Assembly (NCBI GenBank): GCA_022841825.1
Contig: JALHQT010000005.1
Location: 124,001 to 188,000, forward strand
Direction of reading: 5' to 3'
Origin: Anaerolineae bacterium
GTDB lineage: Bacteria > Chloroflexota > Anaerolineae > Aggregatilineales > Phototrophicaceae
Length of the DNA: 64,000 nucleotides
The notes beneath the pieces were generated by a model, which was given only the letters and a program-made list of their open reading frames with translations, made no database searches and had not been told where the DNA came from. Below, in pieces: positions 39,038 through 46,174 of the stretch. Position 1 is the stretch's first letter. Each line of letters begins with the position of its first letter. The position numbers and the translations under genes are program-made.

Positions 39038-39454
39038 TCACTCCTCATCCGGCGTGCGTTCCAGCGCAGGCTCAATCGTGCCGTGTGCGTGATGTTCTTT
39101 CTGGCGGCGGATGTAGTCGACGGCGTACTGTTTGCGCGACGTGCCGAAGGTGAAGGCGCTGTAGCCGCGCTGCCATTGAAATTTCGTTTCGGCATCCGGC
39201 AGCAGCAGGTTGACTTCGCGCGACGAGTACGCCTTGACATCGCTCACCCACTTGGCGACGGCAATCGCGGGCGGGATCGATACGGCGACATGCACATGAT
39301 CGGCGACGCCGTTCAGCGCGAGGATGGGTGCCTTCAGCTCGTTCGATTTGTGCCGGATCGCCTCGTAGATAATCGGCTCCAGCAGCGGCGTGATCGCAGG
39401 CTGGCGATAGCGGGTTGCCCACACGATGTGGTAGTAGAACAACCAGAATGGCAT
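39038..39454 (-). CDS. REP-associated tyrosine transposase (RAYT), TnpA-like
   Basis: 138 residues, Y1-transposase fold of the IS200/IS605 family. HUH motif H53-V-H55 and the catalytic tyrosine helix YIRRQKEHH (Y114, with Q118 at the IS608-like Y+4 spacing) are both present. RAYTs are TnpA relatives that nick single-stranded DNA at REP hairpins and are usually immobile and single-copy, next to two or more REPs. Here the gene sits between two 165-bp hairpin repeats (38861-39025, 39513-39677) with an additional hairpin at 39480-39500 upstream. No tnpB. Reading frame intact. Confidence 0.85.
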   Translation of the reverse strand: MPFWLFYYHIVWATRYRQPAITPLLEPIIYEAIRHKSNELKAPILALNGVADHVHVAVSIPPAIAVAKWVSDVKAYSSREVNLLLPDAETKFQWQRGYSAFTFGTSRKQYAVDYIRRQKEHHAHGTIEPALERTPDEE

Positions 39455-40716: not shown

Positions 40717-40845
40717 AGCAAATCAGCGAATTAGCAGATTAGCTTGATAGCCAAACAGCTCGATAGCTTCATTCTTCGACACCTGATTTTGTGACAGAAG
40801 CTTGCAAGCCAGAGGCTATCCAGCTAAAAAGCTATGCAGCTACAA
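40717..40845. repeat. Inverted octamer arrays without a gene (O1, solo element)
   Basis: Seven exact-period 8-mers of type AGCNNNNN from 40717 to 40772 (e.g. AGCGAATT, AGCAGATT, AGCTTGAT, AGCCAAAC, AGCTCGAT). Opposing units at 40806-40845 (GGCTATCC, AGCTAAAA, AGCTATGC, AGCTACAA). About 33 bp lie between the two arrays. It fills the 171-bp gap between iolE and iolG. Confidence 0.8.
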
Positions 40846-40864: not shown

Positions 40865-41758
40865 TTACAATCCAATGCTGCGCAGATACGCGCGATTTGC
40901 TGCCGAGAAGCGCTTGGGCGCGTCGAGATCGTCGGTCAGGATGTCCTGCTCGACGACCGCCCAGCCATCATAGCCGATCTTCTCCATCTCACGGATGACG
41001 CCGGGGAAATCGACCTCACCCTCGCCGAGCGCGCAGAAGACGCCCGCCGCCACCGCTGCGAAGTAGTCTTTGCCCTGCGCGCGGCATTCAGCGGCGATCC
41101 GCCCTTGGCAGTCCTTGAGATGCAGGTAGCGCACGCGCTCGCCAAACTCGCGCACGGCAGCGACCGCATCACCGCCCGCGTAATGCCAGTGCCCGGTATC
41201 TAGGCACAAGCCGACGCTCATGTCGGTCTTTTCGAGCAGGCGGCGCGTCTCGTCAGGCGTTTCGACATAACCCGCACCGTGATGATGAAAGACGACACTT
41301 AAGCCCGTCTCATCGCGCAGGCGCGCGGCGATCTCGTTGACGCCGCGAGCGACGATCCGCCATGCCGCGTCGTCCAGCGCGCTGCCGCTGCGCCGCCCCG
41401 CCTGCGCGACAAGTTCAGGCACCTTGCCGTTGTCGTCCGCCAGTACGATGCAGCGCGCGCCCAGCGCCGCCAGCAGCCGCCCGACCTTCAACGCATCCTC
41501 CGCACCTGCGGCGTGCGCATCCGCGTCCACGAGCTTCACCGGGACGAAGGCGGACAAGAGTTGCAAGCCGCGTTTGTCCAGCTCGGCGCGCAGCACATCG
41601 GCGTCGGTCGGCAGGTAACCCCAGGGACCCAGCTCGATCCCGGTGTAGCCCGTCTCGGCGATTTCATCCAACACGCGCGCATACGGAAACTTCGGCTCGA
41701 TGCCTTCAAATTCATAAATACCCCAGGACACCGGGGCAGAAGCCAGATGGATCGTCAT
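40865..41758 (-). CDS. iolE: 2-keto-myo-inositol dehydratase
   Basis: 297 residues, xylose-isomerase-like TIM barrel. ASAPVSWGIYEF at the start, FHHHGAGYVETPDE and CLDTGHWHYAGGDAV hold the metal-binding E/D/H residues typical of IolE. It dehydrates 2-keto-myo-inositol to the trione. The ATG overlaps the stop of iolD (ATGA), so translation is coupled. Length (about 300) is normal. Confidence 0.9.
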   Translation of the reverse strand: MTIHLASAPVSWGIYEFEGIEPKFPYARVLDEIAETGYTGIELGPWGYLPTDADVLRAELDKRGLQLLSAFVPVKLVDADAHAAGAEDALKVGRLLAALGARCIVLADDNGKVPELVAQAGRRSGSALDDAAWRIVARGVNEIAARLRDETGLSVVFHHHGAGYVETPDETRRLLEKTDMSVGLCLDTGHWHYAGGDAVAAVREFGERVRYLHLKDCQGRIAAECRAQGKDYFAAVAAGVFCALGEGEVDFPGVIREMEKIGYDGWAVVEQDILTDDLDAPKRFSAANRAYLRSIGL

Positions 41759-43623
41759 AAGTGGTGTCTCTCCTTCTCTTTATCCGCCGCGTATTTCTCG
41801 CGCGCTGCCTGCACCGCCGGGTTTTCGCTCACCTCCGCCACCGCCACATCCCACCACGACTCGTAACCGCCGACGCGCTGGCGGCGGTCGGTCTCGGTGA
41901 TGATGCAGACCGGTCGGTCGGTGATCGTCCGCGCCTCTTGCAGCGCCGCGCCAAAGGCGTCGCGGTTCAGCGCGCGGAGGACATGCGCGCCCATCCCGGC
42001 GCAGATCTGCCCGAAGTCAAGCGGCAGCGTCTCGCCGTCGAGCTGGTCGTTCTCCGTGCGGTAGCGATACTTGGTGCCAAAGCCGTCGCTGCCGACGCTC
42101 TTGCTCAAGCCGCCGATGCTGGCGTAGCCGTGGTTGTCCAGCACAACAATCGTGACGTTCAGACGCTCCTGCACCATCGTCACAATCTCGCTGTTCATCA
42201 TCAGGAACGAGGCATCGCCCACCATGACGTAGACCGCGCGCGTCGGGTCTGCCATCTTCACGCCCAGCCCGCCTGCGATCTCGTAGCCCATCGTCGAAAA
42301 GCCATATTCCAGGTGATAGCCGCGCGGGTCGCGCGTGCGCCACAGCTTGTGCAGGTCGCCGGGCAGGCTGCCCGCCGCGCACAGCACGACATCCTGCGGG
42401 CGGCTGAAGGTGTTGACCATGCCGACGACCTCGCCCTGGGAGAGCAGCGGCTCGTGCTCGAAGTTGTAGATGCGCGTCACCTCGGCGTCCCACTCGGCAT
42501 TCAGCGCCTTGCAGCGGGCGCTGTATACCGCGTCCGTGTGATAGTCGCCCAGTGCCGCGCTCAGTTCGTCGAGCGTGACGCGCGCATCGCCCGTCAGCGG
42601 GATCGCGCCGCGCTTGTAGGCGTCGAACTCCGCGACGTTGATGTTGATGAAGCGCACGTCCGGGTTCTGGAAGGCGGTGTTCGAGGCGGTCGTGAAATCG
42701 CTGTAGCGCGTGCCGACACCGATGATGACATCCGCCTCGCGAGCGATGATGTTCGCGCCATGCGTGCCCGTCGCGCCGATGGCACCCAGGTTGAGCGGAT
42801 AGTCATAGGGCAGCGAACCTTTGCCCGCCTGCGTCTCCCCTACAGGAATGCCGTGCTTCTCTGCGAAGTGGCGCAGCGCGTCATGCGCCTCGCTGTAATG
42901 CACGCCGCCGCCCGCGACGATCAGAGGATGCCGCGCGCCGCGCAGGAGTTCCGCCGCGCGCACCAGCGCCGCCAGGTCGGGGCGCGGGCGCGGGATGTAC
43001 CAGACGCGCTCCTCGAACAGTTCGGCGGGATAGTCGTAGGCGAAGGTCTGCACATCCTGCGGCAGCGCCAGCGTGACCGCGCCCGTCTCGGCGGGCGAGG
43101 TCAGGACGCGCATCGCCTCCGGCAGCGCAGTGACGAGCTGTTCCGGGCGGTTGATGCGATCCCAGTAGCGCGAGACGGGCTTGAAGCAGTCGTTGACGCT
43201 GATGTCCTGCGTATGTTCGCTTTCGAGCTGCTGCAGGACGGGTGCCTGGATGCGCTCGGCGAAGATGTCGCCCGGCAGCAGCAGCACCGGGATACGGTTG
43301 ACGGTGGCGACCGCCGCGCCTGTCAGCATGTTGGTCGCGCCCGGTCCGATGGACGACGTGCAGGCGAAGGTTTGCAGGCGGTTCTTGTGCTTGGCGTAGG
43401 CGATGGCGGTGTGGACGTGTGCCTGCTCGTTGCGCGACTGGTAGTAGCGCAGTTCGCCGCTGTACTGTTGCAGCGCCTGCCCGATACCCGCGACATTGCC
43501 GTGCCCGAAGATGCCCCAGACGCCAGCGAAGAAGCGGTGACGCGCGCCGTCGCGCTCGACGTATTGCGACGCCAAATACTTTATGAGTGCCTGAGCTAGG
43601 GTGAGTGTGACTTTGCTTTTCAT
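41755..43623 (-). CDS. iolD: Trihydroxycyclohexane-1,2-dione hydrolase
   Basis: 622 residues from ATG 43623; a TTG 6 bp earlier is not favoured. A ThDP-dependent enzyme: N-terminal glutamate YYQSRNEQAHVHTAIAYA, and C-terminal TPP motif VGDASFLMMNSEIVTMVQERLNVTIVVLDNHGYASI. It opens the inositol ring to 5-deoxyglucuronate. Located between the four-helix gene and iolE; octamer array O2 lies 15 bp upstream of the start and may affect its translation. Confidence 0.95.
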   Translation of the reverse strand: MKSKVTLTLAQALIKYLASQYVERDGARHRFFAGVWGIFGHGNVAGIGQALQQYSGELRYYQSRNEQAHVHTAIAYAKHKNRLQTFACTSSIGPGATNMLTGAAVATVNRIPVLLLPGDIFAERIQAPVLQQLESEHTQDISVNDCFKPVSRYWDRINRPEQLVTALPEAMRVLTSPAETGAVTLALPQDVQTFAYDYPAELFEERVWYIPRPRPDLAALVRAAELLRGARHPLIVAGGGVHYSEAHDALRHFAEKHGIPVGETQAGKGSLPYDYPLNLGAIGATGTHGANIIAREADVIIGVGTRYSDFTTASNTAFQNPDVRFININVAEFDAYKRGAIPLTGDARVTLDELSAALGDYHTDAVYSARCKALNAEWDAEVTRIYNFEHEPLLSQGEVVGMVNTFSRPQDVVLCAAGSLPGDLHKLWRTRDPRGYHLEYGFSTMGYEIAGGLGVKMADPTRAVYVMVGDASFLMMNSEIVTMVQERLNVTIVVLDNHGYASIGGLSKSVGSDGFGTKYRYRTENDQLDGETLPLDFGQICAGMGAHVLRALNRDAFGAALQEARTITDRPVCIITETDRRQRVGGYESWWDVAVAEVSENPAVQAAREKYAADKEKERHHL

Positions 43624-43637
43624 ATACAACTCTCTTT

Positions 43638-43669
43638 AGCTTGATAGCCGGATAGCTTGATAGCTTCTT
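43638..43669. repeat. Octamer array O2 (left boundary of four-helix element)
   Basis: Four exact 8-mers AGCTTGAT, AGCCGGAT, AGCTTGAT, AGCTTCTT. They lie 10 bp beyond the stop of the four-helix-bundle gene. The reverse-complement units are at 44103-44134. Confidence 0.85.
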
Positions 43670-43678
43670 GATGACGCA

Positions 43679-44044
43679 TTAATCACCATGCAATCGCTTG
43701 ATGAACGGTCCTAGCATCATCTTGATCTCCAACAGTCTTAGATTCATGTTTTCGTATTGCTCGGGGTTTAAATAGGCTAAATCGCGAGCCAGCAGAAGCT
43801 GATATTCAAGTTCAGACGTCGATCCCATTGAGATCTGCATGTAGCGTGCAAGTTCAGCTTCACTGCTTTTGCCGCATCCTTCGGCAATGTTGCTTGGAAT
43901 TGATACTGCTGCCCGACGCATCTGGCTTGTAAGTCCGTAAAGTTCATGATTTGGAAATTGGGCAGTCGCTTTGTAAATCGCAAGTACAAGCTGATGGCTC
44001 TTTTCCCACACCTTCAACTTACGGAATTCTCGCACGACAGGCAT
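43679..44044 (-). CDS. Four-helix-bundle protein (S23 / 23S rRNA intervening-sequence family)
   Basis: 121 residues. VREFRKLKVWEKSHQLVLAIYKATAQFPNHELYGLTSQMRRAAVSIPSNIAEGCGKSS... is the S23/IVP four-helix-bundle signature. These proteins are found in the intervening sequences of some 23S rRNA genes and as free genes of unknown role, and are related to the Avd accessory protein of diversity-generating retroelements. Here it interrupts the iol operon and is bracketed by inverted octamer arrays (43638-43669, 44103-44134). Codon use is more AT-rich than the iol genes, in keeping with insertion of a foreign unit. No rRNA or reverse transcriptase is nearby. Confidence 0.85.
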   Translation of the reverse strand: MPVVREFRKLKVWEKSHQLVLAIYKATAQFPNHELYGLTSQMRRAAVSIPSNIAEGCGKSSEAELARYMQISMGSTSELEYQLLLARDLAYLNPEQYENMNLRLLEIKMMLGPFIKRLHGD

Positions 44045-44102
44045 GTAGGCTTGCTCCTTCTCATCAAGTTCCGGTTGACCTGACGATTATGACAGTACGA
44101 AA

Positions 44103-44134
44103 AAGCTATCAAGCTACCGAGCTATCAAGCTTCC
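44103..44134. repeat. Octamer array O3 (right boundary), overlaps iolB stop codon
   Basis: Four 8-mers AAGCTATC, AAGCTACC, GAGCTATC, AAGCTTCC, the reverse complement of O2 type. The iolB TGA (44125-44127) and last codon lie inside it. Confidence 0.85.
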
Positions 44135-45006
44135 ATCGCCATACTGACAACGGGGACTCGCGGGTCTTTATCTGTCCAGGTGCCTCTGACCCACGCATAC
44201 GCCGGATCATCCACATTCGCCAGACTCTGCGCCGACCCCGCCAGGAAGTTGAGATAGTACGTCGTGTAGCCGTGGGCGCTGACGACCGGATGATAGCCTT
44301 CCGGCACGAGCACTGCGTCGTGGTTGCCTGCCAGCATCAGCGCGTCGATGCGGCGGTCGTCGGTGTAGACGCGCTGGTAGGCGTAGCCTTCCGGGCGGTC
44401 GATCTTGTAGAAGTAGATCTCTTCGAGATCGGCTTCCAGCAGCGTGCCGTCCTCGGCGACTCGATGAACATCATGCTTGTGCGGCGGATAGCTCGACCAG
44501 TTGCCCGACGGCGTATAGACCTCGACACAGACGATGCGCTCGCACGGGAAGCCGGGCGGCAGAATGCCGTTGATCTGGCGCGTGGCATTGCCGCCGCCGC
44601 GTATCTCGACCGGGCAGTCCTGCGGCGTGACGAGCTTGGGCGGATGCTGCGACTCGCTGGTGACCCAGCAGGACGCGAATTCGAGCTGATGACTGATCGC
44701 TTCGATTTCGAAATCGACGCCCGGCGGCAGATAGACCGCCCAGGGCATGCCGCTGAAGACGTTCTCGCGGCGACCGATATTCAGAAATTCGCCGCGACTG
44801 GTGCGGACATGGCAGCGCCCGCCCAAAATGACGATGGCGTTCTCGCAATCGCGCGTGCTGTCCGCGTATCGCTGCCCCGCGAACAACCGCATCGCCGCCA
44901 TGTTGAGGTGTTCCCAACCGACCGCTTTCGCATCGATGCTGGCAAACACGCCACTGTCTCCTTTATCGGCGGATTTGATCAATAAGCCGGAAGAAGTTGT
45001 ATCCAT
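44125..45006 (-). CDS. iolB: 5-deoxy-glucuronate isomerase
   Basis: 293 residues, a bicupin. GHEHLNM-type (VGWEHLNMAAMRLFAG), then RTSRGEFLNIGRRENVFSG and the metal-site block PPHKHDVHRVAEDGTLLEADLEEIYFYKI are typical of IolB. It isomerises 5-deoxyglucuronate to 5-deoxy-2-ketogluconate. The last codons and the stop come from octamer array O3, so the native C-terminus may have been changed by the repeat. Palindrome and heptamer repeats lie upstream between it and iolC. Confidence 0.9.
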   Translation of the reverse strand: MDTTSSGLLIKSADKGDSGVFASIDAKAVGWEHLNMAAMRLFAGQRYADSTRDCENAIVILGGRCHVRTSRGEFLNIGRRENVFSGMPWAVYLPPGVDFEIEAISHQLEFASCWVTSESQHPPKLVTPQDCPVEIRGGGNATRQINGILPPGFPCERIVCVEVYTPSGNWSSYPPHKHDVHRVAEDGTLLEADLEEIYFYKIDRPEGYAYQRVYTDDRRIDALMLAGNHDAVLVPEGYHPVVSAHGYTTYYLNFLAGSAQSLANVDDPAYAWVRGTWTDKDPRVPVVSMAMEA

Positions 45007-45163
45007 GATGAATTCCTTTTTGCGGACGAGGCGTGCCTCGTCCCTACGGACAACCCGACACTATTTGTATGGACGCGGCATAACTCGTCCGCCGAATGGG
45101 TTTGCAGCGCCAACCCTCTGGATAATGCTTGTTCGCACTGCGCACTACGCACCTCGCACTCTT
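45007..45163. repeat. iolB-iolC spacer: palindromes and heptamer array
   Basis: A perfect GGACGAGGC-GT-GCCTCGTCC palindrome at 45024-45043, a weaker one at about 45061-45090, and 7-mers TTCGCAC, TGCGCAC, TACGCAC, CTCGCAC at 45130-45163, ending at the iolC stop codon. No gene. Confidence 0.8.
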
Positions 45164-46174
45164 CTACTCCAATCCCCCGCGTGCTTCGACGAAAGCCATC
45201 ACCTCTTCAAGCGTGGGCATGAAATTCGCGCAGCCGTGTTTCGTGACGACAATCGCGCCGCAGGCATTGCCCAGCCGCGCCGCTTTGCGCCAGCCCCAGC
45301 CATGCACATAGCCATACAAAAAACCGCCGCCAAAGGCATCGCCCGCGCCGAGGATGTTGTAGACCTCGACCGGGTAGCCCGGCGCGTCGATCACGTCGCC
45401 GCCGCGCAAATAGATGCGTGACCCGCGCGCGCCCGTCTTGAGGATCAGCGCTTCCGGACCCGCCGCCAGGATCGCAGTGATGGCGCGCTCAGTATCGCCT
45501 TCGACGTGCGTATCGGACACTGACTGCGTGGCGGTCATCTGGCGCGTATCGACCAGCATCGCCGCGTTGATCTCGTCCTCGGTGCCGATCACGACATCGA
45601 CCAAGCGCAGCGCCGACCGCACCGCCACGCCGAACGCGCGCACGTCATGCCACTGGTTAGGGCGGAAATCGACATCCAGCACCACTTTCGCGCCGCCGTC
45701 GTGCGCGCGCTCAACGGCGAAAAGCGTCGCGCTGCGCGAAGGCTCTTTGCTGAGGTTCGTCCCCGCAAACTGGAAGACCTGCGTATCATGCAGCGGGGCG
45801 GCAAGCACATCGTCGATGCTGATCTGGATGTCGGCGCAGTTATCGCGGTAGAAGAGCAGCGGGAACTTGTCCGGTGGTTCGATACCCAGCACGACCGCAC
45901 TGGAGTTATGCCCCGGTTTGCGCGGGATGTAATCGGTGACGATGCCCTCTTTACGCAGGAAATGGAGGATAAAATCGCCGACCGGATCGACGCCGACGGC
46001 GGTCAGCAGCGCCGTCTTCAGCCCCAGGCGGCGCGCGCTGACGCAGATGTTGGTCGGCGAGCCGCCAACGTAAGCGGCGAAGCTGGTGATCTGCTCGAAA
46101 GGCGCGCCGACATCGTTCGAGTAAAGGTCAATGCCGCTGCGCCCCATGTTGATCACGTCATAAGTTTTGGACAT
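45164..46174 (-). CDS. iolC: 5-dehydro-2-deoxygluconokinase
   Basis: 336 residues from ATG 46174. PfkB-family kinase: GGSPTNICVSARRLG near the N-terminus and the ATP/catalytic signature ILGAGDAFGGGFLYGYVHG (D in GAGDAF). It phosphorylates 2-deoxy-5-keto-gluconate. It lacks the C-terminal aldolase-like extension found on some IolC proteins, so the next aldolase must be a separate protein. Divergent from the second iolG. A TATAAT on the minus strand at 46221-46216 fits a promoter for the iolC-first transcript. Confidence 0.9.
   Translation of the reverse strand: MSKTYDVINMGRSGIDLYSNDVGAPFEQITSFAAYVGGSPTNICVSARRLGLKTALLTAVGVDPVGDFILHFLRKEGIVTDYIPRKPGHNSSAVVLGIEPPDKFPLLFYRDNCADIQISIDDVLAAPLHDTQVFQFAGTNLSKEPSRSATLFAVERAHDGGAKVVLDVDFRPNQWHDVRAFGVAVRSALRLVDVVIGTEDEINAAMLVDTRQMTATQSVSDTHVEGDTERAITAILAAGPEALILKTGARGSRIYLRGGDVIDAPGYPVEVYNILGAGDAFGGGFLYGYVHGWGWRKAARLGNACGAIVVTKHGCANFMPTLEEVMAFVEARGGLE

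Follow-up and report, generated by a model that had tools for sequence, protein, structure and literature searches.

Why should a gene for a small four-helix-bundle protein stand between two facing arrays of a short repeat inside an iol operon? The gene belongs to the S23 family and lies in a 64,000-nucleotide stretch from an Anaerolineae bacterium (NCBI GenBank assembly GCA_022841825.1, contig JALHQT010000005.1, positions 124,001 to 188,000), which we call the window. The original prediction, made from the letters of the window, took the gene for the cargo of an inverted octamer element. We find that the order array, S23 gene, array defines a widespread family of small elements, ~450-520 bp long where measured. 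As a rule the two arrays repeat one degenerate 7- or 8-bp unit in opposite orientation, with a conserved core – often AG – that reads 5' to 3' inward at both ends. Five units is the commonest array length, and which unit is used follows the S23 lineage. A gap that holds an element in some genomes is empty in relatives; some elements sit right behind a stop codon or contain it, and several element-bearing genomes hold gene-less inverted pairs or single arrays of the resident S23's unit elsewhere.

An S23 gene between facing arrays

The window element occupies the gap between iolB and iolD and is made up as follows (coordinates are those of the window).

41755-43629, minus strand: iolD, the next host gene in the operon (equivalog model)
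43638-43664: four-unit AGC array with an 8-bp period, AGC on the plus strand, downstream of the S23 gene
43679-44044, minus strand: S23 (four-helix-bundle) gene, 121 amino acids; PF05635, TIGR02436; AlphaFold model close to 2gsc and 2rld
44105-44131: four-unit AGC array with an 8-bp period, AGC on the minus strand, which is the S23 sense strand, upstream of the S23 gene
44125-44127, minus strand: iolB stop codon, within the right array
44125-45006, minus strand: iolB, the host gene whose end is the insertion point (equivalog model)

On the plus strand AGC occurs at 43638, 43646, 43654 and 43662, and GCT at 44105, 44113, 44121 and 44129. The two arrays of four units, spaced at exactly 8 bp, thus face each other across the gene, as the original prediction had described. 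It had also read the iolB stop as supplied by the right array, and iolB does end at 44125, inside it: in the source genome (G000) the element begins at the last codons of iolB, and relatives have a few other codons and an ordinary stop instead. The S23 gene is the sole open reading frame of at least 100 amino acids between the arrays, where no transposase or recombinase is encoded. Neither a reverse transcriptase nor repeats of a diversity-generating retroelement (DGR) were seen between the arrays or among seven neighbourhood proteins, the part of the window that the scan covered. The locus lies outside a 23S rRNA gene and so differs from a 23S rRNA intervening sequence.

Membership of the S23 family is clear from two models: the protein scores 136 bits against PF05635 (23S rRNA intervening sequence protein; curated cut-off 33.8) and 130.8 bits against TIGR02436 (four helix bundle protein; cut-off 24). 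Its AlphaFold monomer, with a predicted local distance difference test (pLDDT) score of 95, matches 2gsc_B with template modelling (TM) scores of 0.89/0.92. Five chains make up each of the two solved S23 structures, 2gsc and 2rld, and a five-fold assembly of the window protein would rest on these. The source organism of 2gsc is Xanthomonas campestris, and the structure is described as a toroidal homopentamer (PMC4990558; papers are cited throughout from parts of their texts). The model also resembles the DGR protein Avd, both alone (4dwl) and in DGR reverse-transcriptase particles (8ub7, 8ube), and the sequence scores 38.7 bits against the DGR Avd model, below its cut-off of 80. We know of no catalytic activity for S23. 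The family is still termed functionally uncharacterized (PMC11270868).

Arrays accompany S23 genes in many bacterial groups

S23 loci were drawn from relatives of the source genome, from named genomes of many phyla (best 80 of 584) and from the same phylum; titles of the named-genome records include Chloroflexota, Bacteroidota, Acidobacteria, Planctomycetota, a cyanobacterium and Nitrospirae, among others. We kept 130 of 137 loci with an S23 match, dropping those with short coverage, short flanks or duplicates. Aligning the 250 bp that precede each gene with the reverse-complemented 250 bp that follow it gave a median inverted score of 20, against 11 for cross-locus pairs, 12 for flanks in direct order and 12 for 390 random positions of the same loci (p=2e-38 for the last comparison). 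Scores of at least 23 were reached at 47 of the 130 loci and at none of the 390 random positions, and the 99th percentile of cross-locus pairs was exceeded by 44 loci in inverted order and by 14 in direct order.

The flanks are periodic, with the best identity at a lag of 7 (0.69 versus 0.48 in shuffled sequence) and a second peak at 14. With an array called above the 99% shuffle level, arrays stand on at least one side of 113 of the 130 S23 genes (112 without L084, which has a masked run of N) and of 53 of the 390 random positions. Both sides carry them at 70 loci, compared with 4 random positions, and the period is equal in 67 of those 70. S23 genes and arrays therefore belong together, as predicted, and neither of the two outcomes that had been named as refuting – S23 genes unlinked to arrays, and arrays of invariant position – arose at the loci tested.

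The unit itself varies from locus to locus (TCAGCNN, TTAGCNN, GACAGTT, TAGTCNN, GATGAGT, AGGTTCAA, GTTGGTN and others), and as a rule it is identical on both sides of one S23 gene. Periods of 7, 8, 9 and 6 bp were found in 147, 25, 10 and 1 of 183 arrays, and some arrays are long and perfect, with up to 34 units. We therefore reject the idea of a single octamer element carrying S23 as its cargo: what stays constant is the S23 gene, the unit changes by locus, and period 7 far outnumbers period 8.

A held-out set gave a consistent picture. It comprised 60 further loci of the same phylum, taken in order among the matches listed, with three places skipped (an internal stop, a contig end and a 533-codon frame). 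Its 58 usable pairs had a median inverted score of 20.5 against 11, and 40 of the 58 reached at least 17, as did 38 of 290 controls. The strand bearing AG points inward at both ends of the gene: chains of at least five AG lie on the expected strand in 35 of 120 held-out flanks and on the other strand in 9 of 120. GT and GG cores are also frequent in this set. Within the first set, chains of exactly five AG occurred in 63 of 260 flanks, of four in 22 and of six in 16, and the longest chain in a control of one shuffle per flank was four; a count free of any assumed core, based on the most conserved dinucleotide, likewise had its mode at five (70 of 173, with 24 each at four and six).

Number and phase are most easily followed in an element shared among Flavobacterium genomes, delimited at 26 of 30 loci. 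Exactly five AG, exactly 8 bp apart, are present in 24 of 26 left arms and 24 of 26 right arms; the sixth position of the unit is almost always C, and other positions vary. The copies are related, so this shows conservation of the number and not a series of independent events. At one position of the unit, one group of species has A and the other T, almost without exception along both arms; two species are mixed (L251, L264). Several S23 residues divide the same A-type and T-type groups, though this is a single split and not an independent test. Unit similarity rises with S23 identity across 109 loci (Mantel test, 0 of 1000 permutations), a correlation that fits co-inheritance and specific recognition alike. 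At array sites shared by the genomes G002 and G013 (L305/L309 and L316/L312; one arm each, counted by eye), the five cores keep phase: 1 of 30 core letters differs, compared with 11 of 40 letters outside the cores.

The link was also put to a prediction set before the genome search, namely that GGGAATC arrays would flank an S23 gene in a genome that carries them. GGGAATC is the word of 186 arrays in Xanthomonas campestris, mostly of four units and with function left open, among which 70 facing pairs are described; facing pairs number 70 and 75 in two Xanthomonas genomes (PMC4692102). The pattern occurred in 1 of 369 genomes from the class of Thiohalocapsa (Gammaproteobacteria), and the single S23 match of that genome (G848) has inverted GGGAATC arrays on both sides (score 30). 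The prediction held, in one genome. This S23 copy is broken, its frame changing midway, and its neighbours we take by eye to be accB and accC. A search of 22 other genomes yielded 8 further S23 matches of at least 95 bits: arrays of other units above threshold stand on at least one side in seven and on both sides in three, and four have an inverted score of at least 17. Three weak S23 matches (29-38 bits) have no arrays, and two of these adjoin what looks by eye like rpsU; the array-less gammaproteobacterial PF05635 homologues beside such a gene (L464, L465) are perhaps domesticated or belong to a different family.

Filled and empty gaps, and arrays without a gene

If the window element is mobile, relatives should have empty iol operons, a check the original prediction had proposed. 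Among 16 genomes read, the iolB-iolD gap measures 498 bp with S23 in the source genome and 462 bp with S23 in G022; lacking S23, it measures 267 bp in G013, 222 bp in G002 and only 15-90 bp in the remaining 12 relatives. A further S23 element of G022 lies in its iolC-iolB gap, which is 468 bp long. The corresponding gap spans 15-134 bp in nine relatives and 160 bp, with no S23, in the source genome; in three it exceeds 1 kb and holds different sequence.

Similar differences are found in cas loci. Pseudanabaena galeata has an S23 element between cas6 and cas4 that is absent from a relative 86% identical over the aligned part. By eye, the empty site of this relative bears another heptamer run. 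Between cas4 and cas1 the relative has 5 bp and P. galeata a gene-less pair of ~170 bp (cas1 assigned by similarity only), with the cas4 stop falling within the pair's array. In the cas1-cas2 gap of two Pseudanabaena plasmids (L228, L232), both carry a gene-less pair whose 69-bp loop is 94% identical and inverted, which would be explained if the arms had recombined or if the segment had entered twice in opposite directions. Insertions such as L228 might account for the 18 S23 genes reported within cas loci (PMC3936711).

In Flavobacterium, 120 of 121 genomes have a match to a 1,801-bp query taken around L113, and one match runs continuously through the S23 element in at least 39, the query genome (G360) included. 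Twenty gaps were read where the match breaks: 15 lack S23, and in the other 5 (L284-L288) the S23 gene, broken in two cases, is of a different sequence type and has a different unit. Occupation of one gap by different S23 types suggests that it has been filled more than once. Each of the 19 Flavobacterium genomes searched has 1-11 S23 matches, several of them broken, and the loci read carry differing units. S23 elements with GGCTTTGGGCTTTGAGC-type arrays were seen in three Flavobacterium species (L397, L398, L414). Another small inverted repeat, of the CCCTCTCC ... GGGAGAAGG type, occupies the same gaps in two relatives and one Flavobacterium (L175, L176, L271).

Arrays also occur without an S23 gene between them. 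The window contains one such pair, between iolE and iolG.

40717-40767, plus strand: left arm of the gene-less pair, seven AGC units
40815-40841, minus strand: right arm, four in-phase units (GCT on the plus strand)
39038-39454: IS200/Y1-type transposase gene, 1.3 kb from the gene-less pair

This pair had been predicted at 40717-40845; it is present, with its true end at 40841, 4 bp earlier. The Y1 gene scores 22 bits against the RAYT model (cut-off 80), which places it outside the RAYT transposases that accompany REP palindromes. Gene-less pairs with the unit of the window element are scattered within the source genome, where a five-unit AGC(N5) pattern has 75+45 overlapping matches and its reversed control none, so the matches are not due to chance. 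Among the 100 of 120 matches listed, there are nine close opposite-strand pairs, all with AGC on the plus strand first and with loops that by eye differ from each other. A looser orientation count (24 '+-', 8 '-+', 4 '--', 2 '++') was set aside because many units read AGCT, which is its own complement. A solitary heptamer-like run (AGTGCGAGGTGCGTAGTGCGCAGTGCG) lies at 45120-45180 on the minus strand, in the iolC-iolB gap, with AG spacings of 6, 8 and 7 and no facing partner seen.

Other genomes hold comparable sequences. Searching the F. saccharophilum genome with its own element region gives matches at 25 further places, at the query positions of the two arrays; for Thiohalocapsa, 7 of 9 further matches fall at the array positions of the query. 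A solitary AGAAAAT array in G408 resembles by eye the unit of its resident S23 gene, L418. Across 61 genomes, AGC-octamer arrays occur in 9 of the 26 with an S23 match and in none of the 35 without (p=1.8e-4), so that all nine array-bearing genomes have a match, two of these below the family cut-off.

A proposed role for a pentameric ring in the spread of the arrays

What could join a short repeat, a small helical protein and a history of filled and empty gaps? On balance we favour a self-propagating element in which a pentameric S23 ring binds one repeat per subunit, with the gene-less pairs as its dependants. The five chains of solved S23 structures, together with the window model of the same fold, argue strongly for one repeat bound per subunit; the data point less firmly to propagation with the help of S23. 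A ring of five would bind the array much as TRAP (trp RNA-binding attenuation protein), a ring protein, binds repeated triplets at fixed spacing, one per subunit; TRAP itself regulates as an 11-mer and is not known to have inverted arrays or to be mobile. Because a fixed spacing of 7-8 nt mismatches the DNA helix, a single strand of DNA or RNA would be expected to be laid around the ring. S23 might then hold both ends while an enzyme supplied by the host or by another element copies or moves the segment; gene-less pairs could use the protein in trans, and 23S rRNA intervening sequences may be copies that landed in rRNA genes. The chances seem close to even for the broader proposal, a new mobile element without its own transposase whose five-fold ring measures five repeats at each end and which is the source of many orphan heptamers and octamers, such as the short tandemly repeated repetitive (STRR) sequences, TAACTGA and GGGAATC, and of the 23S rRNA intervening sequences.

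Several known systems share part of this design. The nearest is the 23S rRNA intervening sequence with an S23 reading frame (Coxiella and others), which has the same protein family, terminal inverted repeats and a patchy distribution and has been regarded as a selfish element, with RNase III cutting and theories of mobility (PMC4990558); the elements described here differ in lying in intergenic gaps of ordinary operons and perhaps in having ends made of degenerate arrays, mostly of five units, and they have gene-less kin with an equal unit. S23 is also reported in insertions of 16S and 23S genes of the Candidate Phyla Radiation (PMC11270868). Orphan heptamers (TAACTGA, PMC4679880; GGGAATC and GGGGA(T/C)T, PMC4692102) are likewise 7-bp tandem arrays, mostly intergenic, and for TAACTGA an unidentified repeat-binding protein was suggested as the possible mobile element (PMC4679880). 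The term S23 is absent from the main texts of both papers, and by title or abstract – subscription papers being mostly outside this scope – we found no link between S23 genes and arrays in the literature. The cyanobacterial STRR sequences are orphan heptamer repeats as well. REPIN/RAYT systems resemble the present ones in that short inverted repeats form pairs and the form with a gene is the rarer one; their gene, RAYT, encodes a Y1 nuclease and their repeat is a palindrome, in place of an S23 gene and an array. The DGR protein Avd shares the four-helix bundle, the fold match and, as a pentamer, the ring number, but serves the reverse transcriptase of its own element, and none was found among the neighbours scanned here, the only place where one was sought.

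A number of observations weigh against a self-propagating S23 element. It encodes no nuclease or transposase. No array was found at 17 of the 130 S23 loci, direct-order scores are high at 14 of 130, and the arrays of L459, one of the 8 further S23 matches of at least 95 bits, are in direct order. The preference for five is weak in the held-out set, both in the core-free count (mode five, 21 of 89, with 15 each at four and six) and in AG chains, which have no peak at five (10 at four, 10 at five, 9 at six); the window S23 copy has four units per arm, and gene-less pairs in the source genome often have more. Five Pseudanabaena gene-less loops are unrelated except at one shared site, unlike copies of one transposable sequence. 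By eye, no target duplication is visible at iolB-iolD, cas4-cas1 or the Flavobacterium gap, where relatives are too distant for exact junctions. Under the strict family cut-off, the AGC-array association falls to 7 of 22 genomes against 2 of 39 (p=0.008), and it ignores relatedness. One genome (G035) has 79 AGC pattern matches, yet TAGTC arrays at its one S23 gene, and CAAGAGC hairpins in nine Flavobacterium gaps do not match the S23 units, of which one or two were read in each genome; these gene-less hairpins may be ordinary terminators. Finally, 90% of Xanthomonas GGGAATC arrays lie between the same genes in a second Xanthomonas genome, making them more stable than control gaps (PMC4692102), which argues against frequent movement.

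That stability would suit an RNA explanation, in which the arrays form a hairpin around the S23 message that is cut by RNase III or bound by S23 to control the operon, with no movement of their own. Inverted arms can pair, as 23S rRNA intervening sequences do before RNase III cuts them (PMC4990558), and position-specific complementarity of the arms at 57 loci is slightly above that of shuffled columns (18.4 versus 16.8, p=2.5e-4). However, the likeness of the arms is mostly that of a shared unit rather than of exact pairing, and a regulatory hairpin sits poorly with presence and absence at one gap, with several S23 genes of different units in one genome, and with gene-less pairs at many places without an adjoining S23 gene. 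We regard this explanation as unlikely, though with a real chance of being right. A retroelement-like path, with S23 as a relative of Avd that presents array-marked RNA to a host reverse transcriptase, draws on the structural resemblance to 4dwl, 8ub7 and 8ube and on the reported ties of PF05635 to DGRs and Avd (PMC10053308); the loops are not copies of each other, and we judge it distinctly unlikely.

Still less likely, in our estimate, is that the heptamers spread independently, for example through a Y1/IS200-type enzyme, with S23 a passenger or a gene that settles beside them. The many solitary arrays, the window's Y1 transposase gene and the loops that are not copies of each other all agree with this. 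Settling inside an array should leave direct arms, but direct-order similarity is near background (median 12 against 20 inverted); both sides of an S23 gene share a unit that tracks its lineage, and no AGC-array genome lacks an S23 match. For the same reason we reject the view that S23 genes have generally inserted into older arrays, with L459 as a possible instance. Functionless microsatellites arising by slippage near a tolerated intergenic gene would account for the long, perfect arrays; we reject this origin as very improbable, since 48 of 52 Flavobacterium arms preserve the number, the phase and the AG core amid variation at other positions, and both arms are rare at random positions. A phage origin was also rejected: there are three phage S23 records, all annotated as DGR Avd and 29% identical, and a pattern-based scan of viral contigs gave 29 S23 loci, so the element is probably not mainly phage-borne.

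S23 genes thus stand between facing arrays of a short word in many bacterial groups, and the usual five copies equal the number of subunits in the ring. The arrangement has the look of a mobile element of a kind not described before, from which short repeats of hitherto unknown origin could stem. Its linkage to inverted arrays offers the S23 family a testable ligand, a stoichiometry of one repeat per subunit and a role. A self-propagating S23 element, if true, would unite rRNA intervening sequences, the heptamers of cyanobacteria, Beggiatoaceae and Xanthomonas, and the S23 genes in cas loci; should movement without a transposase of its own be shown, the mechanism would be new.
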